NCBI GenBank assembly: GCA_020692355.1
Contig: JAIMKP010000016.1
Location: forward strand, 1 to 62,194
From: Desulfosporosinus sp.
GTDB lineage: Bacteria > Bacillota > Desulfitobacteriia > Desulfitobacteriales > Desulfitobacteriaceae
Direction of reading: 5' to 3'
DNA: 62,194 bases
The translations under genes were made by a program, and so were the position numbers. The notes beneath the pieces were generated by a model. That model worked only from the letters and a program-made list of their open reading frames with translations, made no database searches and was not told the origin of the DNA. Below, in pieces: positions 16,254 to 61,909 of the stretch. Numbering within the stretch: position 1 is the stretch's first letter; every line of letters starts with the position of its first letter.

Positions 16254-16269
16254 AAGGGCAGAAAACTTA

Positions 16270-16428
16270 AGACTACAGGTGCCTCTGCACGAGGAGAATA
16301 GGGAAGTCGGTGGAAGTCCGGCGCGGTCCCGCCACTGTAAACGGGGAGCAAGAAGGTGAACCACGGAAGTATTTCCGGAAGGTGCTTCAAATGCATGGAT
16401 CCGTAAGCCAGGAGACCTGCCTGTAGTT
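16270..16428 (+). promoter_or_regulatory. Cobalamin riboswitch (B12 aptamer)
   Basis: All landmarks of the adenosylcobalamin-class aptamer are present in order: GGTGCC, GAATAGGGAAG, a GCGCGGTCCCGCCACTGTAA-type core around 16321-16340, CGGGGAGC, and the B12 box GTAAGCCAGGAGACCTGCC at 16403-16421. The P1 stem forms between ACTACAGG near 16272 and CCTGTAGT near 16420. It lies about 50 nt before a strong terminator, so cobalamin is expected to stop transcription of the two downstream thiC-like genes. Confidence 0.95.
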
Positions 16429-16475
16429 TGCCTGCCTTGTCGACGAACCAAGAGTAGGGTGGACTAGGATGATGG

Positions 16476-16513: not shown

Positions 16514-16589
16514 GCATTTTTAACCCAGCCTTGTTGTTCTTGTGGTTGTGCCGACGGTCGGATAAAAAAAGCGAAAAGGAGTGCAAGGC

Positions 16590-17876
16590 ATGTCAATCAT
16601 GGAGTTGGCTAAGGGTGGCCACGAGATCCCTATCTTTCGTTCGATCGCCCAAACGGAACATATCGACACCCAACTGTTGATGGAGCGGGTAGCAAACGGG
16701 CAGATAGTCATTCCGTACAACGTCCAACACCAGCCCCAAAAGGCCCATGGGTTTGGGTTGGGTTTAAGCACAAAGGTGAGCGCTAGTGTGGGCTTGGCAA
16801 GTGATGGGGACTCTCTGGCTGAGGAATTAGCTAAGGTCAGTGAGGCGGTGCGGGCTGGTACGCATGCTGTGATGGATTTGAGTACGGGCGGAAACATGGA
16901 TGAAGCGCGCCAAGCCATTTTGCAAAGCGTTTCCTTACCGGTTGGGACGCTACCAGTGTATCAGGCTTTCGCGGAAGCCGTTCGCACCAAGGGCTCAGCT
17001 TTAGCCCTAGATCCGGAGGACTTTTTCCGGATTATGGAGCGTCAAGCGGCTGACGGTGTGGACTTTATGGGACTGCACTGTGCCCTGCATTCAGGGTTAT
17101 TGGAAACCGCCAAGCAAGACCGGAGGGTGCTCAACCTAGTCAGCCGGGGGGGAGCCCTGCTGATGGGCTGGATGCTTTACCATGGGAAAGAAAACTTTTT
17201 GTATACCGGATTCGAGCGAATTCTGGAAATTGCTCGCAAATACGAGGTCACATTGAGTCTGGCTGATTCCATGCGACCTGGAGCAGGTGCAGATTCCTTG
17301 TGCCGTTCGCAAGTTGAAGAGCTGGTCATTTTGGGCGAATTGGTTCAACGCAGTCGCGAGGCCGGCGTACAGATTATGGTCAAGGGGCCGGGTCATGTCC
17401 CCCCGCAGCAAATTTCGGCGACGATACAACTAGAAAAACAAATGTGCCAGGGTGCCCCATATTTTGTATTTGGACCGGTATCCACTGACGTGGCACCGGG
17501 CTATGACGACATCACGGCCGCCATTGGCGGAGCCATGGCCGGTGCAGCGGGAGCAGATTTGATTTGTTATGTGACACCGGCAGAGCATTTGGGCCTGCCT
17601 AATGCAGAGGATGTTTACCGTGGAGTCATGGCCGCGCGGATTGCAGCCCATGTGGCTGACCTAGCCAAAGGATACCCGTTTTCCGATGCGTGGGATTTGC
17701 AGATGAGCCAAGCCCGGCGCGAACAGAACTTAGAGCTTCAGAGAAGCTTAGCACTGGATCCACACAAGCTCAGGGACATGCGGAAAAGCCAGGAGCCTTT
17801 TTGCCAGAAGTGTCGGAATGGGTGTGCTATGACCATTGCCGGGGAATATTTTGGGGAACTGCCCTGGGAGTGCTGA
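16590..17876 (+). CDS. bzaA: ThiC-like 5-hydroxybenzimidazole synthase component BzaA
   Basis: A 428-residue member of the ThiC radical-SAM family. ThiC proper turns aminoimidazole ribotide into HMP-P for thiamine; the paralogues BzaA, BzaB and BzaF turn the same substrate into 5-hydroxybenzimidazole, a B12 lower ligand, in anaerobes. The bza reading rests on context: a cobalamin, not a TPP, riboswitch precedes it, and two thiC-like genes lie in tandem. Family motifs include MDLSTGG, GVDFMGLH, GPGHVP and ICYVTPAEHLGLP. The C-terminal cluster motif is CQKCRNGC, CX2CX3C, one residue shorter than the CX2CX4C of typical ThiC. ATG at 16590 is chosen because AAGGAG ends eight bases before it. Confidence 0.8.
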   Translation: MSIMELAKGGHEIPIFRSIAQTEHIDTQLLMERVANGQIVIPYNVQHQPQKAHGFGLGLSTKVSASVGLASDGDSLAEELAKVSEAVRAGTHAVMDLSTGGNMDEARQAILQSVSLPVGTLPVYQAFAEAVRTKGSALALDPEDFFRIMERQAADGVDFMGLHCALHSGLLETAKQDRRVLNLVSRGGALLMGWMLYHGKENFLYTGFERILEIARKYEVTLSLADSMRPGAGADSLCRSQVEELVILGELVQRSREAGVQIMVKGPGHVPPQQISATIQLEKQMCQGAPYFVFGPVSTDVAPGYDDITAAIGGAMAGAAGADLICYVTPAEHLGLPNAEDVYRGVMAARIAAHVADLAKGYPFSDAWDLQMSQARREQNLELQRSLALDPHKLRDMRKSQEPFCQKCRNGCAMTIAGEYFGELPWEC

Positions 17877-17948
17877 AGAAAGCGGAAAAAGAAATTGGGC
17901 AAGTATCAAAGGGTTAAAAAATATTAAATATTAATGGAGGGGATACGA

Positions 17949-19247
17949 ATGACTCAACTGATCAAGGCCAGACAAGGAATCATTACTCCCGAAGTCCAAC
18001 AACTTGCAGCGGTGGAAGGGCTTACACCGGAAGAACTGTCTCAACGGGTGGCACAAGGGCGTGTCGTTATTTTGAAGAACAAAGGGCGTCAGGGTATGGC
18101 CCCGGTTGCCGTCGGCGAAAAGCTGCGGACTAAAGTGAATGCCAGTATCGGAACATCGTCTGATTGTGTTGATTTTGAAGACGAACTCAAGAAATTGCGG
18201 GTGGCCGGAAATGCGGGTGCAGATACGATCATGGATCTGAGCACGGGTGGAGACATCGATGGCTTCCGGAAACAGGTTCTGCATTCGACAACGTTGCCAG
18301 TTGGCTCAGTGCCAATCTACCAGGCCGCTATGGAGAGTATTGCCAAGCGCGGCAGCATCGTAGATATGACAGCAGAGGATATGTTTGAAGTGATCGAACG
18401 CCATGCTGCTGATGGAGTCGATTTCATGGCTATTCATGTGGCTCTCAATCAGTCCGTTCTTGAAAGACTAAAGATTCAGGGTCGGGTTACGGACATTGTC
18501 AGCCGGGGAGGAGCCTTTCTGACTGGATGGATGCTGCACAATGACCGGGAGAATCCGCTCTATGCCCAGTTTGATCGTGTTTTGGAGATCGCTAGGAAAT
18601 ACGATGTCACGCTCAGTATTGGGGATGCTATTCGGCCTGGCTGTATTGCTGATTCTCTCGATCGTGCTCAAGTTCAGGGATTGGTGGTTGTTGGCGAAAT
18701 GGTTCAGCGCGCTCTGGATGCTGGTGTACAAGTGATGGTAGAAGGCCCCGGACATGTCCCAGCCGATCAAGTAGCAGCAACGATTCTCCTACAAAAACAA
18801 CTTTGTCACCGTGTGCCATTTTTTGTTCTGGGCACCTTAGTAACAGATATAGCCCCTGGCTACGATCATATTACAGCGGCCATCGGGGGTACTCTGGCGG
18901 CCATGTCAGGAGCAGACTTTATTTGTTATGTGACGCCCGCTGAGCACTTGAGGCTTCCGACCGCCGAAGACGTCCATGCCGGTGTCATCGCCGCCCGTAT
19001 TGCCACACATGCTGCCGACCTGGTTAAAGGAGTTCAAGGCGCTTGGGAGTGGGACTTAGCAATGGCTAAAGCCCGTAAGGCACTGGATTGGGAGAAGCAG
19101 ATCGAGCTGGCCATTGATCCTGGAACGGCACAACGGATTCGTGGCGAAAGGAATGCCGCAGGGGCAGAAGCTTGCTCAATGTGTGGCAATTATTGTGCCA
19201 TGAAGGTGGTCGGTGAGTATTTAGGCAAACCCAAGGAAAACTGTTAA
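17949..19247 (+). CDS. bzaB: ThiC-like 5-hydroxybenzimidazole synthase component BzaB
   Basis: A 432-residue ThiC paralogue 72 bp after bzaA and transcribed with it. The shared family motifs are present (MDLSTGGDIDG, GVDFMAIHVALN, EGPGHVPADQ, FICYVTPAEHLRLP), and the C-terminal cluster motif is again CX2CX3C (CSMCGNYC). The start is ATG at 17949, after GGAGGGG; the in-frame ATG at 17934 includes that ribosome site. In Eubacterium limosum bzaA and bzaB together make 5-hydroxybenzimidazole. The later genes bzaC, bzaD, bzaE and cobT are not in this window, so the expected product here is 5-hydroxybenzimidazole itself. True thiamine ThiC is the alternative. Confidence 0.78.
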   Translation: MTQLIKARQGIITPEVQQLAAVEGLTPEELSQRVAQGRVVILKNKGRQGMAPVAVGEKLRTKVNASIGTSSDCVDFEDELKKLRVAGNAGADTIMDLSTGGDIDGFRKQVLHSTTLPVGSVPIYQAAMESIAKRGSIVDMTAEDMFEVIERHAADGVDFMAIHVALNQSVLERLKIQGRVTDIVSRGGAFLTGWMLHNDRENPLYAQFDRVLEIARKYDVTLSIGDAIRPGCIADSLDRAQVQGLVVVGEMVQRALDAGVQVMVEGPGHVPADQVAATILLQKQLCHRVPFFVLGTLVTDIAPGYDHITAAIGGTLAAMSGADFICYVTPAEHLRLPTAEDVHAGVIAARIATHAADLVKGVQGAWEWDLAMAKARKALDWEKQIELAIDPGTAQRIRGERNAAGAEACSMCGNYCAMKVVGEYLGKPKENC

Positions 19248-20003: not shown

Positions 20004-21753
<1,750 letters not shown>

Positions 21754-21833: not shown

Positions 21834-21938
21834 TCATAATTTAGATGAGACATAGCTCAATGGGGCTGTGTTTCTTGAAGGATAGTCTGAAACTCTTGGC
21901 GGGGTGGCGGACTTCCTTTTTCGTTGTAGTGTTAACAT
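21834..21938 (-). CDS. Short ORF in the amt leader
   Basis: A 34-codon frame starting MLTLQRKRKSATPPRVSD. Its site AAGGAGGTGACAG before the ATG is one of the best Shine-Dalgarno sequences in the window, and it lies between the leader terminator and amt, with 80 bp left before the amt start. The product is basic and has no recognised relatives. It may be a true small protein, a translated leader that keeps the mRNA covered, or a relic. Nothing in its codons suggests amino-acid-dependent attenuation. Confidence 0.45.
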   Translation of the reverse strand: MLTLQRKRKSATPPRVSDYPSRNTAPLSYVSSKL

Positions 21939-21964: not shown

Positions 21965-22070
21965 GCAAAAAAAGACGCTCGTTTAGGATACTTTCCTATT
22001 CAAGCGTCTTTGCTTGTAAAATCAAAAGAAGAGAGCTCTGGGGAATATTTCCCGAAAGCACCCTTGCTTT
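21965..22070 (-). promoter_or_regulatory. Putative ANTAR antitermination element in the amt leader
   Basis: On the minus strand two hairpins with six-base loops appear in order: AAAGC-AAGGGT-GCTTT (22070-22055) and CAAGC-AAAGAC-GCTTG (22016-22001). Both loops have A at position 1 and G at position 4, the signature of RNA bound by ANTAR-domain proteins. The second hairpin overlaps the 5' arm of an intrinsic terminator, AAAGACGCT (22011-22003) pairing with AGCGTCTTT (21979-21971) plus a T run. Stabilising the second hairpin would prevent the terminator, as in known ANTAR systems. The 38-nt linker is longer than usual. Confidence 0.7.
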
Positions 22071-22077
22071 GTCTTTC

Positions 22078-22106
22078 ATTATAATAACAATGAGAACCAA
22101 TGTAAA
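22078..22106 (-). promoter_or_regulatory. Promoter of amt
   Basis: On the minus strand TTTACA (22106-22101), a 17-bp spacer and a perfect TATAAT (22083-22078). Transcription would start near 22071, immediately before the first leader hairpin. Confidence 0.75.
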
Positions 22107-22361: not shown

Positions 22362-22384
22362 AATGAAAACTGTTGAAGGGAAAG

Positions 22385-22655
22385 TAAAACTGCAGACCAG
22401 CCTTTTAGAGAGTCAGGGTAGGTGGAAGCCTGGCAGGTTACGGAGCAGACAAATGGGTCCCGGAGGGCGGAGCGAAAGAAACATTGTCACAAAGATATGT
22501 TCTTGAGTAGCTTCCGACGCAAAGCCAGCGTTACTGGGCTAAGGGTGTGTTGGCACTCTGCAAGAGCGGATGTATCTTGATGATGCATCAATGAAGGTGG
22601 TACCGCAGGTTAACGCCTGTCCTTATATTTAAGGATAGGTGTTTTTATTTTTGTG
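22385..22655 (+). promoter_or_regulatory. T-box riboswitch, probable tryptophan specificity
   Basis: The T-box sequence AAGGTGGTACCGCAGG (22594-22609), which base-pairs with the tRNA 3' end, is followed by a terminator whose arms are CGCCTGTCCTTA and TAAGGATAGGTG with a T run (22614-22650). Stem I begins around TTTTAGAGAGTCAGG. In the expected place the specifier loop reads ACAAATGGGTCC, giving the codon UGG (22454-22456), hence uncharged tRNA-Trp. The downstream gene is a TrpX-type binding protein, which agrees with that assignment. Confidence 0.88.
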
Positions 22656-22843: not shown

Positions 22844-23845
22844 ATGAAAAACTTAAGAAAAGTGTTACTTCTTGTTGCCCTTATCATGATGTTTTCGCTT
22901 ACTGCTTGTGGTACAACGAGTAAAACACCCACAACGCCCAATGTGGCCGCAGTCAAAAAAATAGGTATCGTTCAGATTGTGGAACATCCATCCCTTAATA
23001 CGATTCGGGAGTCCATTATTAAGGAATTGGAAGCCAAGGGACTTAAAGACGGTCAAAATATCAAGATTGACTATCAGAATGCCCAAGGCGATCAGAATAA
23101 CCTAAAATCCATCGCCCAAAAATTTGTAGCGAACAAATATGATCTCATCATTGCGATTGCAACCCCATCAGCTCAGGCAGTGGTTGGTGAGACCAAGAAC
23201 ATTCCGATTGTCTTCTCAGCCGCGACGGATCCTGTCGGATCTGGTCTGGTGGGCAGTATGGAAAAACCGGGTGCGAATGTGACAGGCACATCCGATGCCG
23301 TTTCGGCAGCCAAAATCATGGAACTTGCCAAGCGCATTACCCCCAACATTAAAACCATTGGTGCCTTGTATAATTCCGGTGAAACCAATTCGTTATCCGT
23401 TATCAACAACCTAAAGGCATATGCCAAACAAAATAACATGACCGTGGTGGATTCAACCGTCACTAACACTTCCGAAGTTCAGCAAGCCGTCACTTCTTTA
23501 GTTGGACGGGTTGATGCCATCTTCTCTCCGATAGATAATACGATTGCCTCTGCTATGCCGGTGGTGGCTCAAGCTGCCATTAAAGCAAAAATACCGGTCT
23601 ATGTGGGAGCTGACTCGATGGTTAAAGACGGAGGACTGGCCACGTTTGGCATTAACTATCAGGTGCTCGGCAAAGAGACCGCAGATATGGCGGTAGAAAT
23701 TTTAAACGGCAAGAAAGTCGGAGATATTCCGGTGAAGACCATGAGTGACATGAATATCTACGTGAATCAGGCTACCGCCAAGGCTATCGGGATTACCCTA
23801 CCGGATGATGTCTTGAAGCAAGCAGCTCAGGTTTTTGGGAATTAG
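22844..23845 (+). CDS. trpX: TrpX-type ABC substrate-binding lipoprotein (PF04392)
   Basis: A 333-residue periplasmic-type binding protein with a lipoprotein signal (lipobox LTAC, Cys22) and the two-lobed ABC_sub_bind fold: KIGIVQIVEHPSLNTIRESI at the start and ATPSAQAV, FSAATDPVGSGLV and GMNVTG-like blocks later. Proteins of this family encoded after Trp T-boxes are called TrpX and are thought to feed tryptophan to the TrpY permease and TrpZ ATPase. Here neither follows: a terminator and a chemoreceptor come next, so this is an orphan binding protein whose permease must be elsewhere or lost. Start ATG at 22844 after GGGGAGG. Confidence 0.78.
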   Translation: MKNLRKVLLLVALIMMFSLTACGTTSKTPTTPNVAAVKKIGIVQIVEHPSLNTIRESIIKELEAKGLKDGQNIKIDYQNAQGDQNNLKSIAQKFVANKYDLIIAIATPSAQAVVGETKNIPIVFSAATDPVGSGLVGSMEKPGANVTGTSDAVSAAKIMELAKRITPNIKTIGALYNSGETNSLSVINNLKAYAKQNNMTVVDSTVTNTSEVQQAVTSLVGRVDAIFSPIDNTIASAMPVVAQAAIKAKIPVYVGADSMVKDGGLATFGINYQVLGKETADMAVEILNGKKVGDIPVKTMSDMNIYVNQATAKAIGITLPDDVLKQAAQVFGN

Positions 23846-60364: not shown

Positions 60365-61909
60365 TTACTCGGACTCTAATTCCGTGCGCAGGAGATGATC
60401 AGGATAAGCTAACATGCCCATTTCAGGGATATCCAGTCCCGCTATTTCATCTTCAGGCTTGACACGCATGCCCCAAGTGGCATGGAGTAATTTAAAGAAG
60501 AGGAAGGAAAGGCCGAAACCCCAAATGAGAATCACTCCGACGTCGATCAGTTGGGCCAGGAACTGTCCAGGGTTACCGTAGAGCAAGCCACTGACAGTTC
60601 CGGTTACACCATTAAGACCATCTCCATAGGTTCCGTCCGCGAAAATCCCGGTCGCTATAATCCCCCAAATTCCGTTAATCATGTGTACGGAAATGGCGCC
60701 AACAGGATCGTCGATTTTGAGCTTCCGGTCTACAAATAAGACGCTGGTTATGACCAAGACGCCGGCAATGGCACCAATAATGACGGCGCTTAGGGCAGAG
60801 ACGAAGGCTGAAGGCGCTGTGATGGCAACCAGGCCGGCCAGGGTCCCATTGGCCATCATTGACGGATCCGGCTTTTTAAAAATAAGCCACATTAGCATCA
60901 TGGCTATGAAACCCCCAACCGCTCCAGCCAGCATCGTGTTGACCGCAACCACAGCAATACGGAGGTCGGTTCCAGCCAAGGTGCTGCCGGGGTTGAAACC
61001 AAACCAGCCAAAGAAAAGAATTATCGTTCCCAAGATGGCCATGGGAATGTCGTGTCCAGGAAATACATTGATTTTACCGTCTTTACCGTATTTGCCAAGC
61101 CGAGGGCCCAGGACTAGGGCAGAAGCCAAGGCAGCGCTGCCGCCAATGGCATGGACGACGCCGGAACCGGCGAAATCAACGACTCCGTGGCCTAACCCCA
61201 GTTTGCTACCGAGTTGTGCCAGCCAACCGCCTCCCCAGACCCAGTTACCAAAGATCGGGTAGAGGATCATGGCAATGAAGAAAGTACCGATGACCACTGC
61301 GGAAAATTTGACGCGCTCTGCCATAGCTCCGGTGGGGATGGTAACAGCCGTATCCATGAAGACCATTTGGAACAGGAAAAGGGTGAAGACTCCTACATCA
61401 TAAGAGCCGCCGGACGACAGGAAGAAAGCACTATGTCCTAAAAGGCCCCAGCCGTTCACGGCTAATTCCTGGGTCAGGGGTGCGGTGCCGCCTAGGGCAG
61501 AGATTGCGCCGACACCACCAAATTCAAAGGCGAAACCAACCAGATAATAGCCGATAGCACCTACGAGGAAAACCATGAGGTTCATGGCCATGGTATGGGC
61601 TGCGTTTTTAGCGCGAGTAAAACCGGTTTCTACTAAGGCGAAGCCAGCCTGCATGAAGAAGACTAAAAAACCTGTGATAAGCGTCCAAACAAAGTTAATC
61701 CCGATTTTATTTTTGCCGACTTGAGCTGCAACTTCAGCCAGGGTCGGTTGGCCGGCGGTTGCCGCCGCGATGTCGTTAATGCCACCGGTGGTGGTGCCGG
61801 AGGGATCTCCGGCCAAGGCTACTGATGCACAAGCCAAAAGCAAGAGCAGTGTTAGGAACGAAATTTTTAAACCTCTCCACGAAATGGTTGCGTGTCTCCA
61901 CTTGAACAT
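60365..61909 (-). CDS. amt: Ammonium transporter Amt, second copy
   Basis: A 514-residue ammonium channel of a different subtype from the copy at 20356: a signal peptide (ISFLTLLLLLACASVALAG), a 50-residue extracytoplasmic start (ATAGQPTLAEVAAQVGKNKIGINFVWTLITGFLVFFMQAGFALVETGFTRAKN), then DFAGSGVVHAIGG, FFGWFGFNPGS and DPVGAISVHMINGIWG. This is the longer form common in clostridia and archaea. The start is ATG at 61909 or TTG at 61915; AAAGGAG lies upstream of both. It is followed by its own PII gene. Confidence 0.9.
   Translation of the reverse strand: MFKWRHATISWRGLKISFLTLLLLLACASVALAGDPSGTTTGGINDIAAATAGQPTLAEVAAQVGKNKIGINFVWTLITGFLVFFMQAGFALVETGFTRAKNAAHTMAMNLMVFLVGAIGYYLVGFAFEFGGVGAISALGGTAPLTQELAVNGWGLLGHSAFFLSSGGSYDVGVFTLFLFQMVFMDTAVTIPTGAMAERVKFSAVVIGTFFIAMILYPIFGNWVWGGGWLAQLGSKLGLGHGVVDFAGSGVVHAIGGSAALASALVLGPRLGKYGKDGKINVFPGHDIPMAILGTIILFFGWFGFNPGSTLAGTDLRIAVVAVNTMLAGAVGGFIAMMLMWLIFKKPDPSMMANGTLAGLVAITAPSAFVSALSAVIIGAIAGVLVITSVLFVDRKLKIDDPVGAISVHMINGIWGIIATGIFADGTYGDGLNGVTGTVSGLLYGNPGQFLAQLIDVGVILIWGFGLSFLFFKLLHATWGMRVKPEDEIAGLDIPEMGMLAYPDHLLRTELESE

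Follow-up and report, generated by a model that had tools for sequence, protein, structure and literature searches.

What controls transcription of amt and glnK, which encode an ammonium transporter and a P-II signalling protein, in this Desulfosporosinus sp.? On the minus strand of positions 22106-21965 of the window (the whole 62,194-nt stretch of DNA that we analysed), a promoter, two hairpins (A and B) and a terminator are found upstream of the two genes (Table 1). A preliminary description had read this leader as an ANTAR-type antitermination element, in which hairpins A and B would be the P1 and P2 hairpins of one element, joined by a long linker of 38 nt. The locus raises the question of whether an ANTAR protein is involved at all, and of whether the hairpins work as a pair or each on its own.

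Hairpins and terminators of the amt-glnK leader

The promoter is present as described, but it is near-consensus rather than perfect. Both hairpins, with the loops AAGGGT and AAAGAC, were found again; each has 5 bp, and both loops carry A at position 1 and G at position 4 (A1/G4). When the 142-nt stretch was dinucleotide-shuffled 20,000 times, two or more Watson-Crick 5-bp hairpins with A1/G4 hexaloops occurred in a fraction of 5e-5 of the shuffles. The overlap of the second hairpin with an intrinsic terminator also held up: the loop and 3′ arm of hairpin B are the 5′ arm of terminator 2, which folds with -20.2 kcal/mol (z -7.6). The downstream genes were identified by Pfam as amt and glnK, in agreement with the preliminary description.

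Table 1. Features of the amt-glnK leader and transcription units matched by covariance model R1 in the same genome
Feature	Location	Strand	Details
Sigma-A type promoter	22078..22106	-	TTTACA-17-TATAAT; 11/12 consensus matches
-35 and -10 elements	22106-22101; 22083-22078	-	TTTACA; TATAAT; spacer 17 nt
Transcription start (inferred)	~22071	-	
Hairpin A	22055..22070	-	AAAGC[AAGGGU]GCUUU; A1/G4 hexaloop; antiterminator hairpin of module 1
Terminator 1	22018..22071	-	Rival fold of hairpin A; stem 22071-22023 with single mismatches; interrupted U tract to 22018
Hairpin B	22001..22016	-	CAAGC[AAAGAC]GCUUG; antiterminator hairpin of module 2
Terminator 2	21967..22011	-	Rival fold of hairpin B; AAAGACGCUUG...CGAGCGUCUUU + U7; U7 tract 21973-21967
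amt, ammonium transporter	20356..21753	-	Pfam PF00909, E 5e-138
glnK, P-II signalling protein	20004..20381	-	Pfam PF00543, E 4e-29
Unit 1, amt-glnK	Window		R1, 39.4 bits
Unit 2, second amt (amt2)	C79		R1
Unit 3, glutamine synthetase type III (glnN)	C47		R1
Units 4 and 5, branched-chain amino acid/urea-type ABC operons	C72 and C44		R1

The 38 nt that separate hairpin A from hairpin B turned out to be the loop and 3′ arm of a terminator-like hairpin. In the MFE fold, 22071-22023 forms a hairpin (-20 kcal/mol, z -4.2) whose 20 pairs are broken by 3 single mismatches and which runs into a U-rich tail; hairpin A is part of this structure and is not free-standing. A sister genome (G001) gives a clearer picture. 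There, the end of contig C142, which adjoins the same T-box and ABC gene, carries the promoter as in the window and then AAGC[AAGGGU]GCUUUUCGGGGAAUAUUCCCCCAAGGUUCCCUGCUUUUUU, where hairpin A is the 5′ arm of a clean terminator with a U6 tract. Covariance model R1, built on hairpin plus terminator, matches module 2 at 21968-22017 (E 1.6e-5) and, having been trained on other modules, also matches module 1 at 22026-22071 (23.7 bits, E 0.08). The fold, the sister-genome terminator and the R1 match together place the '38-nt linker' within terminator 1 as its body; the leader is therefore made of two tandem attenuators in series, each with a single hexaloop hairpin that overlaps a terminator of its own. 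The weak R1 score of module 1 when taken alone, and its interrupted U tract, count against this explanation.

The preliminary pairing of hairpins A and B is not supported by this analysis. A classical dual-hairpin element, with A as P1, B as P2 and a long linker that folds to bring them together, would account for A1/G4 in both loops, and a 5-bp hairpin within the 38 nt (GGGAA/UUCCC) could cut the distance. However, the linker pairs with hairpin A as a terminator, and in the sister genome hairpins A and B lie next to repeats at different contig ends and, provided that the assembly is correct, are separated by at least ~230 nt. In Enterococcus faecalis eut, both hairpins are needed and natural linkers are 5-12 nt; a 14-nt linker strongly reduces induction, and an addition of 20 nt abolishes in vitro antitermination (PMC3369931, PMC8934654). 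Together with the lack of an A-like hairpin in the other four units of the genome (below), this makes a dual-hairpin element unlikely.

Several further observations were made around the leader. Between terminator 2 and amt lies a small ORF of 34 codons (21834..21938, minus strand) with a strong Shine-Dalgarno sequence, GAAGGAGGUGACA; its start and first ~11 codons are kept in the sister genome (L003), after which the frame diverges, and short ORFs with AGGAGGTGAT occur in other amt leaders as well (L004, L014). A dispersed ~50-nt repeat (GCCTAGTTGCCCTTATGCCACCCGAAAGTTATACTTTCTGAATGGTACAA) is present in about 36-40 copies in each of the two genomes (G000 and G001). In G001, copies of it carry promoter-like sequence and directly precede the modules of amt and of an ABC operon (L202/L003; G001:C84, C130); they may spread modules. 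Divergent from amt, a T-box leader (22364-22627, plus strand; 89.4 bits, just below Rfam's 93) precedes a gene for an ABC substrate-binding protein (22844-23845). A cobalamin riboswitch (16260-16438, plus strand) lies upstream of two successive ORFs, 16581-17876 and 17934-19247, named thiC-like by eye.

Conservation of the module and its regulon

As the preliminary description had proposed, we compared the amt leaders of relatives, and many genera proved to have the hairpin AAAGC[AANGRC]GCUUU in overlap with a terminator. To collect 44 modules we asked only that the four inner base pairs form, that the closing pair be C-G or G-C, and that the loop carry A1/G4. All 44 have A at loop position 2 and 42 have a purine at position 5, neither of which had been selected for, so that, apart from two modules that differ at position 5, every loop reads AANGRN; all 44 close with a C-G pair. 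The resulting consensus of the module, AGCAANGRNGCU, closely resembles the reported 13-nt eut motif, AGCAANGRRGCUY (PMC3369931), and hairpin B matches the published motif except at position 9.

The helices are conserved too. Outer pairs of both the antiterminator and the terminator are kept through two-sided changes: the outer pairs of the antiterminator alternate among AU, GC and CG, which are compensatory changes, and terminator covariation is 0.446 versus 0.224 in shuffled controls, with less weight on the inner pairs, since modules had been chosen for inner-four-bp pairing. This bears on the simplest account of the leader, that it holds plain constitutive terminators whose extra 5′ arm is coincidental. 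The terminators are indeed strong and are favoured energetically over the hairpins (-20 versus -4.6 kcal/mol), but termination has no need of the extra arm, and yet its outer pairs covary and its loop is conserved, so that we give coincidence hardly any credence.

A search with the motif alone performed near background (128 matches versus 100 in reversed controls), and the terminator was therefore added to the search pattern. The leader matches no Rfam family at the gathering score, and at E<=10 Rfam returned from the window nothing but a T-box on the other strand, microRNA-type noise and the cobalamin riboswitch elsewhere. Among named genomes scanned with Amt, which were distant relatives only, no module was seen upstream.

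R1 detected five strong transcription units in this genome, all with nitrogen-related genes (Table 1), and a seventh model match at C13:42335 (23.3 bits); upstream of the third amt of the window (60401-61687) the motif is absent. In relatives, the genes 3′ of modules include amt, glutamine synthetase, P-II, glutamate synthase, amino acid transport genes and nifH, as named by eye from translations; amt is over-represented, Amt having been the query by which the first loci were collected. Tandem modules with one terminator each recur in other genomes (L133, L189, L205, L202, L232).

Some of the relatives' amt leaders (L010, L017, L019-L021, L015) share two further elements, a conserved hairpin at the 5′ terminus (GGUUGUGCACAACC / GGUGUGCACAGCC) and, ahead of the promoter, the box GTATACA(R)GATTCA. 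Elsewhere in the window, about 901-1500 and 2118-2717 form a coding direct repeat (spacing ~1.2 kb, 76% identity over 600 nt), and the hexaloop-like motif inside it is probably there by chance.

The ANTAR protein

The preliminary description had also called for a search for an ANTAR protein, and the genome was found to encode just one (C43:59441-59599, E 1.8e-14). The coding region of this orphan protein is at L001 1477-2064 on the minus strand (G000:C43). Modules co-occur with ANTAR genes. Of 41 near relatives, 33 encode ANTAR, and 27 of these had modules at E<=0.01 versus 0 of the 8 others (p 3e-5); for 299 genomes of the phylum, at E<=0.001, the figures were 35/148 versus 3/151 (p 4e-9), p-values that are optimistic, as the genomes are akin and not independent.

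The protein aligns with the structures of Rv1626, AmiR and EutV, and like EutV it has a receiver-like N terminus, a coiled coil and an ANTAR domain (PMC3369931, PMC8934654). EutV contacts RNA through Arg142, Lys143, Lys147, Tyr164 and Met172, of which Tyr164 stacks on G4 (PMC8934654). By comparison with the EutV structure (6wsh), the equivalents of Arg142, Lys143, Tyr164 and Met172 are kept here, and Lys147 is replaced by Gln.

The eut-like motif, the ANTAR gene, the conservation in relatives and the co-occurrence make ANTAR-type antitermination of amt-glnK, as first proposed, a well-supported prediction from sequence. Could the antiterminator hairpins instead serve another RNA-binding protein or a small RNA? 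ANTAR binding is here deduced, and the only ANTAR protein of the genome has a degenerate receiver, which leaves some room for a different binder. The near-identity to the eut motif, the strong co-occurrence of modules with ANTAR genes, and a nitrogen regulon of the kind predicted for ANTAR proteins in other Firmicutes (PMC3369931) all speak against such a binder, and we regard it as very improbable.

The receiver-like domain differs from that of EutV. While EutV is phosphorylated by EutW (PMC3369931, PMC8934654), the protein here lacks the phosphorylatable Asp of its receiver and has Gly in its place (PDIMIIGWHL versus PDLVLMDIQM in EutV). The phospho-Asp is missing also from many related ANTAR proteins, with degenerate receivers across many related genera. 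This substitution suggests that the protein is probably not kinase-controlled and that its switching depends on a partner or a ligand. It would in this respect be like AmiR/AmiC of Pseudomonas and NasT/NasS, whose ANTAR proteins are not switched by a kinase, AmiR having a pseudo-receiver under control of its partner. Unlike in these two systems, no partner gene is apparent beside the ANTAR gene; its neighbours include genes for a 212-aa protein without a Pfam match and for proteins resembling subunits of succinate dehydrogenase/fumarate reductase.

One hairpin per terminator

The modules resemble the eutP, eutG, eutS and eutA leaders of E. faecalis in that a hexaloop hairpin with A1 and G4 overlaps the 5′ arm of an intrinsic terminator (PMC3369931, PMC8934654). 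In contrast to eut, with its two hairpins, there is one hairpin per terminator here. No second A1/G4 hexaloop was found ~5-12 nt upstream of a module in this genome: the upstream hairpin of amt-glnK sits at a distance of 38 nt with a terminator of its own, and in the other four units (glnN, amt2 and the two ABC operons) the stretch from the predicted start to the module contains no A1/G4 hexaloop hairpin. In these four units the hairpin lies 10-14 nt from the start, as predicted from the promoter consensus (the glnN distance was read by eye), which leaves no room for P1.

The same is seen in relatives. Requiring a hairpin of at least 4 bp with at least 2 G-C pairs, we found P1 in 2 of 74 relatives' modules, which is at chance level (0.5 expected), and both cases were upstream tandem modules. 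The test can detect P1 where it is present, since 6 of 26 distant phylum modules had one versus 0.23 expected. Furthermore, in 20 of the 54 modules with a good promoter, less than 15 nt of RNA precedes the hairpin. The GGUUGUGCACAACC-type 5′ hairpin of some Desulfosporosinus-like amt leaders (the genus is a guess) could be a divergent P1, which counts against the single-hairpin reading.

We consider the following mechanism likely. In each module, the loop and 3′ arm of the AANGRN hexaloop hairpin double as the 5′ arm of the terminator, so the two structures are mutually exclusive. Where active ANTAR protein is absent, one or the other of the two terminators would halt RNA polymerase. The protein is presumably active when nitrogen is limiting, probably through a partner or ligand rather than a kinase; it would then grip each hexaloop hairpin as it emerges from the polymerase, and with the hairpins held in succession the polymerase would read through into amt-glnK. 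A second, recruitment (P1) hairpin would be unnecessary, unlike in the eut, nas and ami systems. The same single-hairpin module would control the second amt, glutamine synthetase III and the two branched-chain amino acid type ABC operons, making up a nitrogen regulon of five units.

Judged by its sequence, this is a single-hairpin variant of the known ANTAR system, and a new one; in the open-licence literature we found single-hexaloop ANTAR sites only in PMC8934654, and a report elsewhere is possible. The ANTAR regulons predicted for Desulfotomaculum reducens and D. acetoxidans are alike in having several elements per genome on nitrogen genes, and in having multiple attenuators per transcription unit; ammonium transporter and P-II genes are among the matches of that survey (PMC3369931). 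Those elements were, however, found with a two-hairpin model (PMC3369931), by which the modules described here, having no P1, would be missed or scored low. Two-hairpin searches would thus under-count ANTAR targets.

Walshe et al. proposed that an EutV dimer engages hexaloops singly, P1 serving to recruit it for P2; the structure of EutV with RNA did not explain the need for two hairpins, given that a dimer can hold only one (PMC8934654). The same authors thought sites with a single hexaloop conceivable where a moving polymerase sets no time limit, and called for bioinformatic work on them (PMC8934654). The dozens of natural single-hexaloop sites found here overlap terminators, which argues that they act during transcription and under its time limit. 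For the family and order to which the window belongs, we lean towards a nitrogen regulon run by single-hexaloop ANTAR antiterminators, often at the 5′ end of the transcript and sometimes in tandem, in which the core mechanism would not include P1, and an orphan ANTAR protein whose receiver is dead would act on one hairpin during transcription. This lineage would then be a natural test of why the known systems need a pair of hairpins, and of what allows this protein or these short leaders to dispense with the recruitment hairpin.
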